Notes under the pieces: model-generated
Database searches by the model: none
Told to the model about the DNA's origin: nothing
The model's input: only the letters and a program-made list of their open reading frames with translations
Translations under genes and position numbers: made by a program
In this document: positions 22,147 to 34,050 of the stretch, one piece after another
Position numbering within the stretch: position 1 is the first letter of the stretch
Layout of the letters: each line of letters begins with the position of its first letter
DNA from: Rhodohalobacter sp. 614A
Lineage (GTDB): Bacteria; Bacteroidota; Rhodothermia; Balneolales; Balneolaceae
Assembly (NCBI RefSeq): GCF_021462415.1
Contig: NZ_JAKEDS010000002.1
Span: forward strand, 496,001 to 560,000
Direction of reading: 5' to 3'
Length of the DNA: 64,000 nt

Positions 22147-23580
22147 CTACGACTGCTGTTCAGAAACAAGCTCAAAATCTCCAAAGCCGGTTGTAGCCTC
22201 GAAAATCAGCGTTTTGTTGGGATAAACCCAGATTTCGCGTGTAGGCGCATTGGTTGGCATTCGGCGTTCAATATTATCCGGTTCGCCGTAGAGGATGTAA
22301 GCTTTCCCCTGGTCCGTTTCAAAACCGGGTACCTGTAGTGATGAAAACTCATTATAAGCATAATCAATTCTTTTATAGAACTCCGTCATCAATTCATTGA
22401 ATTCTGTATCCTGGGTTGGGTCCCGTTGCGCCCAGAACTCACGGAATTTGCGTTCTTTTTCCGTGTCTGACCCGGAATCAATTTCATCCAGTGTGTTGTC
22501 GCTGACGATGAACCGAAGCATGTTAATTGCAACATCCAGGTTGTACAGACTGACCGGCATGTCCAGCCATTGAGATTGGATCATTTTTTCGCCAAGAACT
22601 TCGCCACTTTCACTGTTTTCAAGGGCAATCCGGTACCTGGAGTTCTCAAAATTTTGGTTAGGAATTTGAGCATATGCATAAAGAGCGCCATCATCAGAAA
22701 TGTTGGTATGAAAACCGATTTCATCTTCTGAGTGTGTGAAACTAACTTCGCCAAAACGAATGAGTTCTTCAGGACTGATTTCTACGGTATGGCGAAGTTC
22801 TTTTGAATCGGCATTGGCTCCGCCAGTCAGGCGATAAAGCTTTAGACTCAATGACCCGGCATTCTCACTTGCTGTTTCCGGAATTCGTACCAATATGCTG
22901 TAATTCTGCCCATATAAAATATTATTACCATAGTTATAAAAGGTAGCCGAGAAGCTGTTTTCATCTGTTTCAAAACTTTTCAGCAACATAAATTCGGGGT
23001 TATCAGACCCTTCATAACCTGTGATTTCAAAATTTCTTTTTGGAGATGGCATTTCTCTGTCCGGCCTGCTATTTCTGCGATCAGCCATCGCCGGCATGTT
23101 GGAACGAATCATTTGAAGCTCATAGTGATATTCACCGGGACCGAGCGTGGTACTCATAAATCCCTGTGTATAATCTGATCGGGATGTTGTTTTCTCATAT
23201 GTATCCACCCAAAGCGTGTCTTGCCATGCATCTCTGAAAAGAGATTGACCCGTGTCCGATGATCTCCGGGAAGCCATTCCTTCATAAACTTCAAAACCAA
23301 CCTGAACAGGGCCATAATACTCAGCTTCCGGTCTGGGGCCTTTCATGTTCATACTTTTTTTGAGGAAAGGAACAGAATCATAATCGAGCCTGAAGAGCAC
23401 AGCAATTTGCGACTGGTTATCATCGGTGGGAAAGGAGACATGATCAAAATAGGAATTCGGTCGGTCCGTTCGCATTAAAAGTCCCTGATAAGCCGAACCA
23501 GCTCGATGAGTTCTTTGTGCATACAGAGTGGAAACAGTAAGGCTAAGCAGCAGTAGGAATAGTAAAGTACGTTTAATCAT
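22147..23580 (-). CDS. GWxTD domain-containing exported protein
   Basis: A 477-residue protein with an N-terminal signal peptide (ending TLYAQ, about 1-21). The C-terminal 110 residues contain the GWxTD-type pattern: KFREFWAQRDPTQDTEFNELM, then RIDYAYNEFSS, GKAYILYGEPD and REIWVYPN. The middle is beta-rich with no recognised domain. GWxTD proteins are common in Bacteroidetes, Acidobacteria and relatives, with no assigned function. A periplasmic or surface location is inferred from the signal peptide. It has its own upstream region of about 130 bases, divergent from the acyl-CoA carboxylase. Confidence 0.82.
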   Translation of the reverse strand: MIKRTLLFLLLLSLTVSTLYAQRTHRAGSAYQGLLMRTDRPNSYFDHVSFPTDDNQSQIAVLFRLDYDSVPFLKKSMNMKGPRPEAEYYGPVQVGFEVYEGMASRRSSDTGQSLFRDAWQDTLWVDTYEKTTSRSDYTQGFMSTTLGPGEYHYELQMIRSNMPAMADRRNSRPDREMPSPKRNFEITGYEGSDNPEFMLLKSFETDENSFSATFYNYGNNILYGQNYSILVRIPETASENAGSLSLKLYRLTGGANADSKELRHTVEISPEELIRFGEVSFTHSEDEIGFHTNISDDGALYAYAQIPNQNFENSRYRIALENSESGEVLGEKMIQSQWLDMPVSLYNLDVAINMLRFIVSDNTLDEIDSGSDTEKERKFREFWAQRDPTQDTEFNELMTEFYKRIDYAYNEFSSLQVPGFETDQGKAYILYGEPDNIERRMPTNAPTREIWVYPNKTLIFEATTGFGDFELVSEQQS

Positions 23581-25562: not shown

Positions 25563-26885
25563 ATGAAGAAAACCTACCTTCTTTGGGCAGTTCTTCTGTT
25601 AAGTAGTTTACTGCCTCTCTTAGTATTTGCACAAAGCCCCCCGGCTTATGCATTGGAAAATGTAACCATTCATCAAAGTGATGGATCCGTTATTGAATCG
25701 GGTACAATTGTCTGGCGCGATGGGGTAATCGAAGCCGTCGGACGAAATGCCGAGATTCCTTTTGATGCTTTTTCGGTTATAGACGGCGGAGATTCCCTCC
25801 ACGTTTATCCCGGATTTATTGACGGCCTCGGAACCTGGGGAAGTCCCGATCTTCCAAGTCGTCCTGAGCAAGTGGATGATCCCGGAAATCCTGGATATGA
25901 GCGCGCAGGAATTCAGCCGGAACGTTCTGGCGGCGAACTTCTGGATGCATCCGGAATCAAAATTACCGATGTGATGAAAGCCGGAATTACCACTGCCAAC
26001 CTTGGCCTGAAAGGATATATGCTTGCGGGTCAGCCGGATCTCTATTTTCTGAATGGAGAAGAGACCACCGATTATCTTTTTAGAGAATCGACCGGCTATC
26101 AATTTGCTTTTCAAGGAGCTGCAGGTGGTTGGTCCAGCCGGGCGTATCCCTCAACCACAATGGGCGTGATGGCACAATTTCGTCAATTGATGTACGATGC
26201 AGAGGCCTTACAGGATCATATTCAATATTTTGCGGATGCCAACGGAAATATTCAGGCACCCAAAAGAGATAAGGTTTTGGAGTCTCTGTTTCCGGTCTTA
26301 AATGGTGAAGCCAAACTCTTCGCTAATGTAGATTCGCCGGAAGATTTTGAACGATTGATGATTCTGAATGATGAGTTTGGTCTTGACATCATTATCGTTT
26401 CCGGGAAATCCATGAACTACAAAGCTTCTGAACTTGAAGAGCTGGGAATCCCTGTATTAGCCTCCATCGAATTTCCGGAAAAACCAAAATGGATGAAGGA
26501 TGATGAGGAAGATTCCGAAGAAGAATCCATTTCATCGGAAGAGCAAAGCTATCGGGAGCGACAGGAGAAAGCTTATAACTCGGCAATCAAAAATATCAAA
26601 ACACTTCTGGATGAAGATGTCCGGGTTGGTTTTGCCAGTGCGGGACTGAACGCTGATAAGCTTCTCGAATCTCTCAGAACATTGAAAGAAGAAGGAGATC
26701 TTTCGGATGAAGAAATCCTTCAAATCCTCACCGTCAACACGGCCGAAATATTGGAAAGCAGCGAAACACTGGGTCAGTTGGAATCAGGTTTTAATGCAAG
26801 TTTTGCAGTGTTTGATTCTCCGTTTTTGGATGAAAAAGCCAAAGTGAAAATGGTCATTTCAAACGGAGAGATTCATGAATTTTAA
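25563..26885 (+). CDS. Exported amidohydrolase-like protein lacking the HxH metal motif (first of three)
   Basis: A 440-residue protein with a signal peptide (about 1-24, ending VFA). It has the composite amidohydrolase fold: an N-terminal beta-sandwich (ALENVTIHQSDGSVIESGTIVWRDGVIEAVG), then VYPGFIDGLGTWG where the usual PGxIDxHxH would be. The two metal-binding histidine positions are Leu89 and Thr91. The C-terminal ILTVNTAEILESSETLGQLESG is the normal closing motif. Without histidines a metal-dependent hydrolase reaction is unlikely, so it may be a structural partner of the following enzyme. A 10-20 residue acidic insert (about 320-335) is present. Its end overlaps the next gene by 11 bases. 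Confidence 0.78.
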   Translation: MKKTYLLWAVLLLSSLLPLLVFAQSPPAYALENVTIHQSDGSVIESGTIVWRDGVIEAVGRNAEIPFDAFSVIDGGDSLHVYPGFIDGLGTWGSPDLPSRPEQVDDPGNPGYERAGIQPERSGGELLDASGIKITDVMKAGITTANLGLKGYMLAGQPDLYFLNGEETTDYLFRESTGYQFAFQGAAGGWSSRAYPSTTMGVMAQFRQLMYDAEALQDHIQYFADANGNIQAPKRDKVLESLFPVLNGEAKLFANVDSPEDFERLMILNDEFGLDIIIVSGKSMNYKASELEELGIPVLASIEFPEKPKWMKDDEEDSEEESISSEEQSYRERQEKAYNSAIKNIKTLLDEDVRVGFASAGLNADKLLESLRTLKEEGDLSDEEILQILTVNTAEILESSETLGQLESGFNASFAVFDSPFLDEKAKVKMVISNGEIHEF

Positions 26886-28386
26886 AAAGAATAGTTATCA
26901 GGAAATGAATAAAAGGAAACATAGCTTTTTGAAGATTTCTAAGTCGGTAATGACTCTTTTGAGTTTGGCATTTATTCTGATTGCCGGAGCAATAACACCG
27001 GCAGTTGCCCAGGAAAAAGGGTCTGTTTTAATTGAAAATGCCACTGTCCTGACAATAACCGGTGAAAATCTTGAAAACACCGATGTTTTGGTTGAGGATG
27101 GAATCATTACTGGAATTGGTGAAGATCTCGATGCTCCCCGTGGAGCGGATCGAATTGACGCAACCGGTAAATATGTGATGCCGGGTATTATCGATGCTCA
27201 CTCTCATCTCAACGGTGTGGATATCAATGAGGCTACATCGCCGGCAACGCCACAGGTTACGATGAAAGAGTCGATTGATCCGAATGATATTGCCATTTAT
27301 GCGGCACTCGCGGGTGGAATTACATCCATCAACCTGATGCACGGTTCAGCAAATGTGATTGGCGGACGAAATGCTACGCTAAAATTGCGGTACGGACAAG
27401 ATCAGCAGGGACTGATTTTTGAGGATGCTCCTCAAACCGTCAAATTTGCACTTGGTGAAAATCCGATGCGAGTCCATGGCGAGAGTTCGAGAATTCATCC
27501 AAGTACAAGAATGGGTGTCGAGATGGTGATTCGTGAGTATTTTGATGCCGCGATTGACTATCGAAGAAACCGAACCGAATACCTTGAAGCCAAAGAAGAA
27601 TATGAGCGAACCAGGAGTGGAACGCCACCGCTACCAGTTGCAAAAAATCTTCGTTTAGAGGTTATCGCCGATATTATTGATGGGAATATTCTGGTTCACT
27701 GCCATTCGTATCGGGCCGATGAAATCCTGATGCTTACCCGTGTTTTTGAAGATTATGGTGTGGAAAATTACACATTTCAGCATGCCAATGAAGCCTTTAA
27801 GGTGGCCCCTGAATTGGCTGAACATGGTGCACATGCTTCGGTTTTTGGGGATTGGTGGGCGTACAAATTTGAAGTGTATTACAGTACCGCATACAATGCT
27901 TCCATTCTGAATGAAAATGGTGTGGTTGTGAGTATCAATTCGGATGATAACGAACTCATCCGGCACCTGAACCACGAAGCCGCGAAGACAATCCGGTATG
28001 GAAGCACATCAGAGAATGATGGGTTGAGAATGATCACGCTCAATCCGGCTATTCAGCTTGGAATTGATGAGTATGTTGGCTCTATCGAAGAAGGAAAACA
28101 AGCTGATATTACGATCTGGAATGGTCATCCGTTGAGTGTTTACAGCATCAACGAAATGACTTTGATTGATGGTGTGGTTTACTTCGACCGTGAAAATGAT
28201 GGCGATGATATGAGGTTAGATCGTGCAGTCAGCGCTACCGAAAATTACGAGGATACACAATCCACTGCTTATCAAAGTTCAGGTGGCAGAGATGAAGATG
28301 CCTGTATGGAAGGCGTGTTTATGCTTTTCGATTCGCAGGAAAACAGGCAGGCGTTTCACCAGGAATTCCACAATCATACTAAATAA
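26875..28386 (+). CDS. Exported amidohydrolase with complete metal site (second of three)
   Basis: A 503-residue amidohydrolase with an N-terminal signal peptide ending at PAVAQ (about 45). Metal ligands are all in place: His109 and His111 in IDAHSH, His275 and His277 in VHCHSY, His303 in QHANE, and Asp357 in NSDD. The family covers imidazolonepropionase-, prolidase- and dipeptidase-like enzymes; substrate is unknown here. The start at 26875 has a purine-rich GGAGAG 6-7 bases upstream and lies inside the preceding gene, implying coupling; ATG 26905 is an alternative that gives a more typical signal peptide. The neighbours are its two metal-site-less paralogues. Confidence 0.87.
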   Translation: MNFKKNSYQEMNKRKHSFLKISKSVMTLLSLAFILIAGAITPAVAQEKGSVLIENATVLTITGENLENTDVLVEDGIITGIGEDLDAPRGADRIDATGKYVMPGIIDAHSHLNGVDINEATSPATPQVTMKESIDPNDIAIYAALAGGITSINLMHGSANVIGGRNATLKLRYGQDQQGLIFEDAPQTVKFALGENPMRVHGESSRIHPSTRMGVEMVIREYFDAAIDYRRNRTEYLEAKEEYERTRSGTPPLPVAKNLRLEVIADIIDGNILVHCHSYRADEILMLTRVFEDYGVENYTFQHANEAFKVAPELAEHGAHASVFGDWWAYKFEVYYSTAYNASILNENGVVVSINSDDNELIRHLNHEAAKTIRYGSTSENDGLRMITLNPAIQLGIDEYVGSIEEGKQADITIWNGHPLSVYSINEMTLIDGVVYFDRENDGDDMRLDRAVSATENYEDTQSTAYQSSGGRDEDACMEGVFMLFDSQENRQAFHQEFHNHTK

Positions 28387-28394
28387 CCAGTTCT

Positions 28395-29708
28395 ATGAAG
28401 AAAGCAGTTTTATTAACCTTTACGATTGTTTGTATGAGTGCACAATTGCTGTTCGCTCAGATCACGGAAAAACCGGAATTCGGTAAATTTGCCATCACAA
28501 ATGCAACGATACATACCGTAACCAATGGTACAATTGAAGGCGGCATTGTTTTGATTGAGGATAATTCAATTTCATTTGTGGGCCAAAATGCCAGGATTCC
28601 GAATGATTACACCACTATCGACGCAACGGATAAACATGTCTATCCGGGATTCATTGACGCCAACACTCGTCTTGGTCTTGAGGAAGTGGCTTCAGTGAGC
28701 TTAACCCAGGATTATGCCGAGGTGGGTGATTTCAATCCCCACATGAAGGCATTTACGGCTGTTAACCCGAATTCAGCTTCCATTCCCGTCACAAGGGTAA
28801 ATGGAATTACGAATGTGGTTGCCATTCCGGCCTCGGGTGTTATTGCAGGAAAAGCAGTTCTGCTGAATCTTTGGGGATACACACCTGATGACATGGCTGT
28901 CAAACCATCCGCCGGACTTCACATCGAATGGCCTTCTGCCATGAAAGGCGGTTTTTGGGATAGCCGATCGGATGAAGAAGTTCAGAAAGAGTTTGAGGAA
29001 GATCTCAAAGAACTCAATGACTTCTGGAAAAAAGCAGCCTTCTATGATGAGATGATGAACGAATATGAGCTCGATCCCGGGAATCGTTCGCAACCGGATA
29101 AAAACACCAAAATGGAAGCGATGCGGGAAGTTGTGAGCGGAGAAGTGCCGGTCATCATTTCAGTGAATAGTGAAAAAGACATCAAAAATGCACTTGAATG
29201 GGCGGAAGAAAACGAAGATGTAAGTGTCATATTTGCAGGCGTTTCAGAAGGCTGGAGGGTTGCTGAGGAATTAGCTGAGGCCGAAATCCCCGTGATAACA
29301 TCCAGCCAGTATACCATTACCCGGGATTATGATAATTACCAGCGCCCCTATCAAAATGCCGGTTTAATGGCAGAAGCCGGGGTGAAGGTGATGATATCCA
29401 CCGGTGAAGGTGTTGAAAATGTGCGGAATGTCGGATTTCATGCAGGATACGCCGCCGCGTACGGCATGGGCAAAGAAGAAGCTTTGAAAGCGGTAACCAT
29501 CAATCCTGCGGAAGCGTTTGGGGTTGGTGATCAGCTTGGGAGTATTGAGGAAGGAAAAACAGCGAATCTCTTTATTTCCGATGGTGATCCATTCGAGCCT
29601 ATGACGCATATTGAATACGTCTTTATTAATGGATATAAAATCCCGATGACCAGCCGTCATGATCAACTCTATGAAGAGTTTTTAGACCGGGACGCGGTTA
29701 ATCGATGA
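28395..29708 (+). CDS. Exported amidohydrolase-like protein lacking the HxH metal motif (third of three)
   Basis: A 437-residue paralogue of the first gene with a signal peptide (about 1-22, ending LFAQ). The fold markers are present (FAITNATIHTVTNGTIEGGIV, KHVYPGFIDANTRLG, VTINPAEAFGVGDQLGSIEEG), but the histidine positions after IDA are Asn90 and Arg92. A later GFHAGYAAAYGMGKEEAL segment resembles the end of the barrel. It begins 8 bases after the second gene, so all three are one operon ended by the terminator at 29796. Likely non-catalytic or using a different chemistry. Confidence 0.78.
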   Translation: MKKAVLLTFTIVCMSAQLLFAQITEKPEFGKFAITNATIHTVTNGTIEGGIVLIEDNSISFVGQNARIPNDYTTIDATDKHVYPGFIDANTRLGLEEVASVSLTQDYAEVGDFNPHMKAFTAVNPNSASIPVTRVNGITNVVAIPASGVIAGKAVLLNLWGYTPDDMAVKPSAGLHIEWPSAMKGGFWDSRSDEEVQKEFEEDLKELNDFWKKAAFYDEMMNEYELDPGNRSQPDKNTKMEAMREVVSGEVPVIISVNSEKDIKNALEWAEENEDVSVIFAGVSEGWRVAEELAEAEIPVITSSQYTITRDYDNYQRPYQNAGLMAEAGVKVMISTGEGVENVRNVGFHAGYAAAYGMGKEEALKAVTINPAEAFGVGDQLGSIEEGKTANLFISDGDPFEPMTHIEYVFINGYKIPMTSRHDQLYEEFLDRDAVNR

Positions 29709-29795: not shown

Positions 29796-29828
29796 AGAGA
29801 GGATCTCATACAGATCCTCTCTTTTTTT
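29796..29828 (+). terminator. Terminator of the amidohydrolase operon
   Basis: AGAGAGGATCT (29796-29806) and AGATCCTCTCT (29812-29822) form a perfect 11-bp stem with the 5-base loop CATAC, followed by seven T. Clear rho-independent terminator in the plus direction. Confidence 0.9.
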
Positions 29829-29871
29829 GATAGATGACCGCTACTATCCTGTACACGTATGAAAAAAATAG

Positions 29872-32800
29872 CTAACTATTTTTTTCTGTTTCAAACTGAT
29901 CAACATACTCCGTTGGACTCATTTCGTAATACTCTTTAAAAACATAGCTGAAATAGGAGAGGCTTTTATATCCCACTGCGTAGGCTACTTCCGTAATATT
30001 CCCCGCTTCTATCAGCAGCAGTTCTGACGCTTTCTCCATCCGGTATTTTTTGATGTATTCGCCGGGAGAGAGATCCGTTTTTTTCTTTAATTTCCTCAAA
30101 ACCTGGCTTCGGTCCATGTGCAATTGATCGGCCAAATCCTGCACTTTAAAATCAGGGTTGGAAAATTGCTCAGCTAAGACTCCATCAATCTTTTTCAAAA
30201 ATGGATCATCAGATGATTTTTTTTCACGTTCAACCGAATGGTTTTTAGGATGTTCTTTCTGCAACAATTTCCTGAGCCTATGCCTGGATTCGATCAAATT
30301 CTGAACTCTGGCTTTTAAAAGATCGGGATCAAAAGGCTTGGTGATGTAATCATCGGCACCAACTTCCAAACCTTCGATCTGACTTTTTTTCGCGGCTTTC
30401 GCGGTCAGGAAAATGACCGGAATAGAAGCCGTCGCTGAATTCTCTTTCAGTTTTCTATTAAACGAAATCCCATCAAGCTCCGGCATCATAATATCGGCAA
30501 TAATGAGATCCGGCAGATATTTTTCTGCGATGGAAAGTGCCTGGACTCCATTGGCAGCTTCCAGAACACGATAGATTCCCGAAAGTTCTTCAATCAAAAA
30601 TTCGCGAACATCATCATTATCTTCCACAACCAATATGGTTGTTTGGTCTGTATCCGCAGTTTCTTCAGTATGTTCTTTTTTCTGATACACTTCATGATCA
30701 TCATAAAAATCAGGAGCAATTACATAGTCTTTTTCTCCCGATTTGAGCTGATCTTCAGTAAAATGATTTTTGCCTTTTTTCAGTCTTACCGTAAATGTAG
30801 TGCCTTCACCGGGAACTGAAGAGACAGTCAGATCACCCTGATGAAGTTTTGCAAATTCCAAAGCGAGTGAAAGGCCAATTCCCGATCCTTCATGATAACG
30901 GGTTTCGGAAGAATCCACCTGGTAAAACCGGTCAAAAACTTGTTTCTGTTCCGTTTCTGAAATGCCAATACCGGTATCACTGACCTGAATGGTAATATCA
31001 TTTTCGAGTTCATTCACTTCAACAAGAATACGTCCGCCGGAAGGCGTAAATTTGATGGCATTTGACAGAAGATTCCCTGCAATTTTATCGAGCTTATCTG
31101 GATCTGCATAAACGGTCAGGGATTTATCAGGGACTTCAAGAATAAGTTCCAGTCCCTTTTCATCACAGATGGATTGAAACAGTTCGGTAAGATCTCCCAG
31201 GAATCGATTGAGATCAATTTTAGCGGCACGCACTTTCAATTTCCCCTGTTCAACATGCGTTAATTCCAGGGTTTGGTTCATCAGTCTCAACAGGCGATTA
31301 CTGTTACGAAGCATGCGGTCGAGCTCGTGCTGAGTCGGCTCGTCAAATTTTTGTCTGTCTTTCGAAAGAAGCCGTTTTAAAGGACTTATGATCAGAGTCA
31401 ACGGTGTTCTGAATTCGTGGCTGATATTTGTAAAGAAACGGGTTTTCGCCTGATCCATCTCTTTTAGGCGCTCGGCTTGTTCTTCCGTTTTTTGTTTTTC
31501 GTTTTGTAACTCTTCAGTTCTTTCATCAACCAGTTGTTTTAATCGTAGTTCATTCTGTTTGAGGGAACGAACTCTCAGCCGAAAACCGATATACAAAAGG
31601 AGTGCGATTCCCAAAATCATCAGGGCTCTGAACCATATCGTCTCATAAAAAAATGGGTCTATGACAATGGTCTGAGTCGCCGGATCGGGATTCCAAACGC
31701 CTACATTGTTGGATCCCATGACCTCAAATGTATAACGACCCGCAGGAATATTGGTGTAGGATACAGTCCGGCGGGACCCGGCTTCCACCCACGTATCATT
31801 ATAGCCTTTTAGTCGATATCGAAACCTGTTTTTTTGAGGTTCCACATAACTAAGAGATGTAAATTCCAGCTCAAAATCCCGTTGGGCTGCTTCAAGGTTG
31901 ATATCGGATTTTTCGGTGCTTAGGAATGTTTGATCAGGCGTTTGAAGCTGCTCAATATGTATGGGCGGAATCAAATCGTTTGTGATGATCTCAGAAGGAT
32001 TGAAGACAGTTATTCCACCCTGACCCGGAAACCACATTTGTCCATCGGACGCAAAAATTCCGGGTGATTGTACGCCCCCATTTCCCTCACGATTGCGAAG
32101 TCCATCACTTTCGGTATAGGAAACCCCATTGATGGATTTAATTTCACCCTGATGAAAAGCTTCAAGTTGTTCCTTTGAAACCGTAAAAATCCCCCGGTTG
32201 GTATTGAACCAGAAATTGCCATCATCGTCCATCAAAACAATGTGGATCACATAATCTAGCAGGCCGTCGCTACGGTCATAATGGGTGATGGTTGTAAAAT
32301 CCGGCTGGCTATCTTTTATCTCCAAACGAATCAGTCCGATGTCTTCGGTGCCAATCCATAAAACATAATTTTCGGGATTTGACCCCGGTTCAATAAAAAG
32401 AGAGCGAATCAGATCGCTTTTTAAGCCACTATTTGAACTGTATAGGTCAAAATTTTCATCTGAGTAATTTGCGATTCCACCGCCATTCGTAGCAATCCAA
32501 ACAGAACCATCCGGCGCATTCAAGAAAAATCTGGCAGCAAAATCTGTAAAACCATTTGTACTGTTAAAGATTTTCCACTGGTCATTTTTCTTTCGAAACA
32601 ATCCGATGTTTGAGCCCAGCCATAAATCTTCATTTTTATCCTTCCAGATCGCATGAACAGTTGCATTCATGAGACTCTCCGGTTCGAGCACTTTTTTGAA
32701 TTGATGGGCTCCGGGATTGAGTTCGAAATATCCATTATTGATAACCCCGGCAAGAATTTTACCATCATCTTGTTGCAGAAGAGAACGGATCGCTACGACA

Positions 32801-34050
32801 TTTTCATTTTCGAAATCATATAATTCACTGATAGCTCCACTGTTGATATGGACCACACCCGGACCAAAAAGTCCAGCCCAGACAGTCCCGTTATCATCCT
32901 CCATTAATGGATATACATTATTCCCGGGCAGCCCGTTTTCCGTGCTGTAAACTGTAAAAGGATTCGGCTTTATTCTGTATAAACCATCCATTGCCGTACC
33001 TACCCATAAATTTCCCTCGTGGTCAAACAGATAACTGTTAATATCATCTTTGATTTCAAGAACCAATTCATCTTCATGGAAAATTTTATTTCTTGTGAAT
33101 GTCCACTTCTCTCCACCTTGACTGGTAAAAAAGGATTCCCCCAGAGAGTAGGTTTCTCCCACGCCCCGTTTGTAATGGTTGGCAATGGGCCCGCCAAAAA
33201 GGAAGAACCCATTATCGAACTCTTCATAAGGAATTGTTTTCCCATTGGTTTGCATTTGCAGGAGATTGGCATCAGGATTCGATTCGTTTGAAGAACAACA
33301 GGGCTGAATTTTTCCATTTTGAAAGGTGTATAAATCCCCATCAGATGCTATCCACATCACACCGGAGTTATTTTCATACAACGGATAAAATTCAAATGGA
33401 ACCAGGGCTGTAAACATGCGTTTTGTCTCTCCATTCGCATATCGATACACATCCTGAGTGGTTCGATCCATATACCAGATGGCGCCATTTTTTTGCACAA
33501 ATATCCGATGGATGTTCCCCTTAATGATTTCCGGCTCAAAGGGTTGAAGCTTCTTTCCATCATACACACTGATGCCTTTATCCGTACCAAACCAAATGTT
33601 TCCATCCGGCCCTTTTGAGAGCTGGTAACACAGTGAGCCATTCAGTCCGTCTTCTTCTCCAATATGTTTGAATGTTCCATCCGAAAAGCGGACGAGAAAT
33701 TCCTGTTCGGTTTCCAGCCATAATGAACTGTCTGCCGCCTGTTGGAAATTCTGAAATCGGTTGGTTGGCAGATCGGGATATTCTTCGGTCTGATAGACTT
33801 TAAACTGAAGTCCGTCAAATCGCACCAAGCCATCAAAGGTTACAAACCATAAGTATCCATCCTGGGTTTGATGAATTCTTAGTGCATTATTCACCGGCAG
33901 TCCATCTTCCATTCCCCAGCGGTCAATAACAAAAGAGGGGTGATAGATACGGCTTTGAGCCTGTGCGGTAAGTGTAGCTGTCAGAATTAAAAAACTGCTA
34001 ACGATCAGCTTTAAAGGAAGATGAAATAAAGATGTCTTCGGAAGATGCAT
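29872..34050 (-). CDS. Hybrid two-component system sensor/regulator (HTCS)
   Basis: A 1392-residue one-protein two-component system. In order: signal peptide (about 1-31, ending TAQAQ); periplasmic two-bladed-propeller region of Reg_prop repeats (about 40-690), with repeated GLP.N and G.LW.GT phrases; Y_Y_Y domain (about 720-795); membrane helix (about 805-826); coiled coil; HisKA with phospho-acceptor His878 in SHEFRTPL; HATPase with NLLSNAIKFTPSGG and DTGIGIS; receiver domain with Asp1186 in ADIMMPELDG; and an AraC-type DNA-binding domain at the end (YKSLSYFSYVFKEYYEMSPTEYV). Such proteins usually sense a polysaccharide breakdown product and switch on a nearby transport/secretion locus. The most likely target here is the divergent secreted-protein locus at 34.5 kb; no SusC/D pair is present. 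Confidence 0.95.
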   Translation of the reverse strand: MHLPKTSLFHLPLKLIVSSFLILTATLTAQAQSRIYHPSFVIDRWGMEDGLPVNNALRIHQTQDGYLWFVTFDGLVRFDGLQFKVYQTEEYPDLPTNRFQNFQQAADSSLWLETEQEFLVRFSDGTFKHIGEEDGLNGSLCYQLSKGPDGNIWFGTDKGISVYDGKKLQPFEPEIIKGNIHRIFVQKNGAIWYMDRTTQDVYRYANGETKRMFTALVPFEFYPLYENNSGVMWIASDGDLYTFQNGKIQPCCSSNESNPDANLLQMQTNGKTIPYEEFDNGFFLFGGPIANHYKRGVGETYSLGESFFTSQGGEKWTFTRNKIFHEDELVLEIKDDINSYLFDHEGNLWVGTAMDGLYRIKPNPFTVYSTENGLPGNNVYPLMEDDNGTVWAGLFGPGVVHINSGAISELYDFENENVVAIRSLLQQDDGKILAGVINNGYFELNPGAHQFKKVLEPESLMNATVHAIWKDKNEDLWLGSNIGLFRKKNDQWKIFNSTNGFTDFAARFFLNAPDGSVWIATNGGGIANYSDENFDLYSSNSGLKSDLIRSLFIEPGSNPENYVLWIGTEDIGLIRLEIKDSQPDFTTITHYDRSDGLLDYVIHIVLMDDDGNFWFNTNRGIFTVSKEQLEAFHQGEIKSINGVSYTESDGLRNREGNGGVQSPGIFASDGQMWFPGQGGITVFNPSEIITNDLIPPIHIEQLQTPDQTFLSTEKSDINLEAAQRDFELEFTSLSYVEPQKNRFRYRLKGYNDTWVEAGSRRTVSYTNIPAGRYTFEVMGSNNVGVWNPDPATQTIVIDPFFYETIWFRALMILGIALLLYIGFRLRVRSLKQNELRLKQLVDERTEELQNEKQKTEEQAERLKEMDQAKTRFFTNISHEFRTPLTLIISPLKRLLSKDRQKFDEPTQHELDRMLRNSNRLLRLMNQTLELTHVEQGKLKVRAAKIDLNRFLGDLTELFQSICDEKGLELILEVPDKSLTVYADPDKLDKIAGNLLSNAIKFTPSGGRILVEVNELENDITIQVSDTGIGISETEQKQVFDRFYQVDSSETRYHEGSGIGLSLALEFAKLHQGDLTVSSVPGEGTTFTVRLKKGKNHFTEDQLKSGEKDYVIAPDFYDDHEVYQKKEHTEETADTDQTTILVVEDNDDVREFLIEELSGIYRVLEAANGVQALSIAEKYLPDLIIADIMMPELDGISFNRKLKENSATASIPVIFLTAKAAKKSQIEGLEVGADDYITKPFDPDLLKARVQNLIESRHRLRKLLQKEHPKNHSVEREKKSSDDPFLKKIDGVLAEQFSNPDFKVQDLADQLHMDRSQVLRKLKKKTDLSPGEYIKKYRMEKASELLLIEAGNITEVAYAVGYKSLSYFSYVFKEYYEMSPTEYVDQFETEKNS

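Follow-up and report, generated by a model that had tools for sequence, protein, structure and literature searches.

The window analysed here is a stretch of 64,000 nucleotides from Rhodohalobacter sp. 614A (contig NZ_JAKEDS010000002.1, positions 496,001 to 560,000). It contains three consecutive genes on the same strand, whose products, denoted P1, P2 and P3, all pass the Pfam cut-off for Amidohydro_1 (PF01979) and so belong to the amidohydrolase fold.

25563-26885, plus strand: open reading frame of P1, a putatively secreted amidohydrolase-fold protein without the metal site, 440 amino acids
26875-28386, plus strand: open reading frame of P2, the metal-bearing and predicted catalytic subunit, 503 amino acids
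28395-29708, plus strand: open reading frame of P3, a second putatively secreted amidohydrolase-fold protein without the metal site, 437 amino acids

P1 and P2 overlap by 11 bp, and P2 and P3 are separated by a gap of 8 bp. A hydrophobic leader of the Sec type followed by an A-Q junction can be recognised by eye in each protein (VFA-Q in P1, AVA-Q in P2 and LFA-Q in P3), and judged from these signal peptides all three are probably periplasmic, or at least exported. The observation of the original prediction is borne out, and its pattern extends far beyond the window. We consider it probable that the trio is a secreted heteromeric amidohydrolase, of the type of the solved Thermotoga protein 3OOQ, in which one catalytic subunit is joined by two that are non-catalytic.

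The metal ligands separate P2 from its two neighbours. Alignments were made of trio proteins from 40 relatives (family, order and class), 40 loci spread across the phylum and 80 loci of named genomes, with each distinct sequence counted once. In these alignments the full ligand set of P2 comprises H109, H111, K190, H277, H303 and D357, in which K190 is the probable position of the carboxylated lysine. All six ligands are present in every distinct P2 sequence across Bacteroidota (143/143) and in none of the P1 (0/143) or P3 (0/153) sequences, and a contrast of 143/143 against 0/296 is not one of chance. By sequence, P2 has the HxH-K-H-H-D pattern of a metalloenzyme, and P1 and P3 do not. The positions of the HxH motif in the window, from sequence and alignment, are as follows.

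27199-27207, plus strand: H109-S110-H111 (HSH) of P2, the motif lost in P1 and P3
25827-25835, plus strand: Leu89-Gly90-Thr91 of P1 at the HxH position
28662-28670, plus strand: Asn90-Thr91-Arg92 of P3 at the HxH position

Leu89/Thr91 and Asn90/Arg92 had been read correctly in the original prediction, and the alignments show that the other ligands are missing from P1 and P3 as well. Of the ligands it had proposed for P2, His109/His111, His277, His303 and Asp357 stand; His275 does not, as it is replaced by Q or T in many relatives, and K190 had gone unlisted though it is universal.

The loss of these residues might be compensated, with P1 and P3 binding metal by way of other residues and remaining active. 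Scattered H, D and E do occur at single columns: the second HxH position is H in 49% of long P1 sequences, some of which have D, E or N in the H303 column. However, the column composition of the 143 P1 and 153 P3 sequences reveals no conserved combination of substitute ligands. Nearly all P1 and P3 sequences have S or G in the H303 column, and most have Q, S or N in that of K190, which makes this explanation very improbable. Nor did any relative that keeps the histidines intact in a flanking protein appear among the 143 P1 and 153 P3 sequences; such relatives and consistent alternative ligands were the two findings that the original prediction had named as speaking against it.

P1, P2 and P3 each form a single clade (FastTree support 0.998, 0.999 and 0.996, respectively), and the ligand losses are therefore fixed and old. 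Organisms named in the sequence collection include Fodinibius, Gracilimonas, Balneola, Fulvivirga, Cyclobacterium, Roseivirga, Algoriphagus and Saprospiraceae. Among the three closest genomes, the ratio of non-synonymous to synonymous substitution rates (dN/dS) is 0.066-0.091 for P1, 0.047-0.095 for P2 and 0.043-0.063 for P3, values which are rough because dS exceeds 1. Both dead genes are thus under purifying selection. The loss of every metal ligand might suggest that P1 and P3 are functionless duplicates in decay, but dN/dS values of 0.04-0.09, open reading frames, conservation throughout the phylum and co-retention with P2 speak against it. We attach practically no weight to this explanation; taken together, these data rule out pseudogene decay at the level of the family.

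The strongest sequence evidence that P1 and P2 function as one unit, as a heteromeric enzyme would have it, is the natural fusion of the dead and active domains. Where P1 and P2 are two genes, P1 is either ~440 amino acids long, as in the window, or mostly 550-680 amino acids with an extra C-terminal stretch. In many lineages they form one protein of ~1000 amino acids, with P1 at the N-terminus, then an all-beta stretch, and P2 at the C-terminus; both fused and split forms are present in the genus of the window. P3 is a separate gene in all loci examined. In one fused protein (L073:6878-9841) the all-beta stretch spans ~100 residues (residues ~450-547), has no Pfam match and has no counterpart in the 440-residue P1 of the window. 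One genome, G034, has two complete pseudo-active-pseudo trios (L047 and L075), one with the short and one with the long type of P1. The C-terminal tail of the split type of P2 contains Cys477 (window positions 28303-28305), which is invariant in 24 aligned sequences.

The closest solved relative of P2 is the Thermotoga amidohydrolase 3OOQ (E=1.2e-66), which is also the closest to P3 by sequence (E=1.4e-37) and the best match to P1 by profile in the PDB (E=4e-26). The P1 and P2 profiles match each other with E=4.6e-24, and the P1 and P3 profiles cover most of the length of the P2 profile. P3 modelled alone with AlphaFold2 from 59 sequences reached a predicted local distance difference test (pLDDT) score of 90.8 and a predicted template modelling (pTM) score of 0.88, and this model superimposes on 3OOQ with a Z score of 46.5 and a root mean square deviation of 2.4 over 367 residues, the next PDB entries having Z scores of ~25. 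A fused P1-P2 relative of 988 amino acids from the same genus gave a model with pLDDT 86.1 and pTM 0.81, in which the P2 part matches 3OOQ with a Z score of 46.6 (next entries ~25). For two large domains a pTM of 0.81 would imply that they are placed confidently with respect to each other. All three proteins belong to the 3OOQ-like subfamily, by sequence in each case and by fold for P3 and the P2 part of the fused protein.

P3, encoded separately, is retained together with P2. In a sample of 392 evenly drawn Bacteroidota genomes, the same for both proteins, P2 was found in 209 and strong P3 matches (E below 1e-85) in 208, with both present in 208. No genome had a strong P3 without P2 (0/392). 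The single genome with P2 and no P3 (G103, in a frame of 2523 amino acids) has a long run of N directly after the P2 domain; it was dropped as a real exception, as nothing can be concluded from the DNA past that point. A further 17 genomes with weaker matches to the P3 profile (E above 1e-78) lack P2; these matches were assigned by score to a second module described below, an assignment confirmed directly for G063 only. Eight of the loci examined have P3 away from P1-P2, which those genomes nevertheless retain. In five loci (L127, L129, L137, L145 and L149), with P1-P2 elsewhere, a lone P3 is followed by a protein of ~300 amino acids ending in GPHGA or GPHGN, which by eye resembles an alpha/beta hydrolase.

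The P3 sequences also contain a conserved segment of their own.

28683-28727, plus strand: loop at residues 97-111 of P3, a candidate partner contact (conservation, low model confidence)

Within this loop E97, D106, E109 and G111 are nearly invariant, and E97, D106 and E109 form, together with R134, the invariant polar set of the 153 P3 sequences. The region 91-110 is also the least confident internal part of P3 when folded alone (pLDDT blocks of 72 and 62, with residues 100-103 below 50). Because invariant residues coincide with low confidence in the isolated chain, we propose that residues 97-111 may contact a partner. The same residues can be read in other ways. P1 and P3 could be binding or sensing barrels which pass a substrate or product to P2 or to a transporter, with no stable complex. 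The polar set peculiar to P3, the retention of the fold and of purifying selection in both proteins, and the occasional separation of P3 from P1-P2 would all suit such a role. It is, however, at odds with the covalent fusion of P1 to P2 in many lineages, and no recurrent transporter or receptor gene appeared in a simple clustering of neighbours, in which clusters were judged from one example each. We regard it as unlikely.

Alternatively, the barrel of P1 or P3 may have acquired a new catalytic activity that needs no metal, as the invariant acidic and basic residues of P3 lie near the former HxH in sequence. Yet these acids sit in the low-confidence loop of the model, and few polar residues of P1 are invariant throughout the phylum, chiefly R207 and R264 (at least 90%). 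CRMPs, or dihydropyrimidinase-related proteins, have an amidohydrolase fold without a working metal site, and such metal-less proteins are generally held to be non-enzymes. New catalysis is accordingly an improbable explanation.

The pairing of active and dead members is not confined to the trio. A second adjacent pair lies in the same genome (L079:5067-7615; G000 C1, ~1110-1112.6 kb), with the active member first and the dead member after it. At the ligand positions the active member reads HHKHHD and the dead member R-V-T-S-G-G. Of 20 regions retrieved from relatives, 19 contain the pair and the remaining one holds trio P2 and P3. In these regions no ligand is missing from any complete copy of the active member, and no copy of the dead member has the full set. 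The recurrence of this pattern makes active-plus-dead a repeated plan in these genomes. When the second module is included, an unrooted tree separates the metal-less proteins (P1, P3 and the dead member of the second module) from the metal-bearing ones, with a FastTree support of 0.98 and a Shimodaira-Hasegawa-like approximate likelihood ratio test (SH-aLRT) value of 96.7, a split which is compatible with one ancestral loss. The same genome also encodes a protein of 1137 amino acids with PD40 beta-propeller repeats and a C-terminal amidohydrolase domain (L080:5029-8442; G000 C2, ~775-778 kb).

The heteromeric assembly put forward in the original prediction is thus strongly supported, though not proved, by the fixed losses, the monophyly of each member, the P1-P2 fusion and the co-occurrence in 208 genomes, even where the genes are unlinked. 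The new periplasmic chemistry that the original prediction had offered as an alternative gains no support from these data, which do not speak against it either. In such an assembly P2 would act as a binuclear metal hydrolase, cleaving a C-N bond by means of a metal-bridging hydroxide. P1 would be a built-in structural partner of P2, in place of a homodimer mate, and P3 would dock on P1-P2 as a further non-catalytic subunit, with the E97-D106-E109/R134 loop as a possible contact. P3 may complete or gate the active site of P2, or supply substrate recognition. By analogy, P1 and P3 may work like a prozyme or like the pseudo-dihydroorotase of Pseudomonas. A broader reading, which we hold only tentatively, is that of a secreted enzyme found throughout the Bacteroidota, in which one catalytic subunit and two dead ones assemble obligatorily, arisen by duplications of an ancient active/dead pair, in which the dead subunits complete or gate the site and whose plan is reused in the second module.

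Several points weigh against a complex. The evidence for it, from sequences and single-chain models, is indirect, and P1 and P3 might work in one pathway as separate proteins. The co-occurrence counts are not independent of phylogeny, and the dN/dS values, with dS above 1, are only rough. The pTM of the fused model, moreover, would speak to the arrangement of the domains and not to the importance of their interface.

The surroundings of the trio mark its end, and give little indication of its function.

29796-29830, plus strand (the scan placed the palindrome on the minus strand): strong palindrome followed by a run of T, from sequence

This palindrome is a predicted terminator, 3' of P3 and between convergent genes, which closes the trio unit. 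Between the three genes no stem matches it in length, and an examination of RNA folding at the P1/P2 junction found nothing. The flanking genes on the opposite strand encode a GWxTD-domain protein (22147-23580) and a hybrid two-component regulator (29872-34050), the latter with Reg_prop, Y_Y_Y, histidine kinase, receiver and AraC domains. When the neighbours of 160 loci were clustered, none recurred widely, so that no function can be drawn from context; an upstream acyl-CoA carboxylase gene recurs in 12 of the 160.

Comparison with known systems brings out what is particular to the trio. CRMPs give weak matches to P1 and P3; these are animal proteins of a different subfamily, not known to share an operon or a polypeptide with an active partner. 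3OOQ of Thermotoga maritima, which we take to be TM0814, is of the same subfamily and is the best PDB match of all three proteins. In contrast to the trio it is a single protein of the metal type, solved by itself, under an entry title that gives no function and with no dead partners reported. A literature search found nothing on TM0814, and no paper on tandem, inactive or pseudo-amidohydrolases of Bacteroidota, most subscription journals lying outside the search.

The nearest precedents come from other enzymes. In the aspartate transcarbamoylase (ATCase) complex of Pseudomonas aeruginosa, an inactive chain homologous to dihydroorotase is needed for the activity of its partner (PMC7053772). 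The likeness lies in an inactive amidohydrolase-type chain beside an enzyme; the partner described there is the unrelated ATCase, whereas in the trio each dead chain has an active paralogue as its partner. In trypanosomatids, prozymes of S-adenosylmethionine decarboxylase (AdoMetDC) and deoxyhypusine synthase are dead paralogues which hetero-oligomerise with the active enzyme and activate it (PMC5201418, PMC3663545). The trio likewise pairs catalytically dead paralogues with an active enzyme and retains them together, and the natural P1-P2 fusion and its confidently modelled 988-residue form bear on such a hetero-oligomer. The prozymes differ in their folds and hosts and in having one dead partner instead of two, and activation, which was demonstrated for them, is a conjecture for the trio. 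The trio is new with respect to these precedents in its combination of fold and partner, in its two dead partners and in its spread across a phylum.

The dead-paralogue partners that we found described are single cases, such as the parasite prozymes and a complex of pyrimidine synthesis. A family that occurs in more than half of the Bacteroidota genomes in the sample, in fused and split forms and with a second module, would be a large natural series in which to study the retention of dead copies by active enzymes and the replacement of homomers by heteromers. A further consequence is that many amidohydrolase-family proteins of Bacteroidota, namely the fused proteins of ~1000 amino acids and their neighbours, lack the metal site in one half or altogether.

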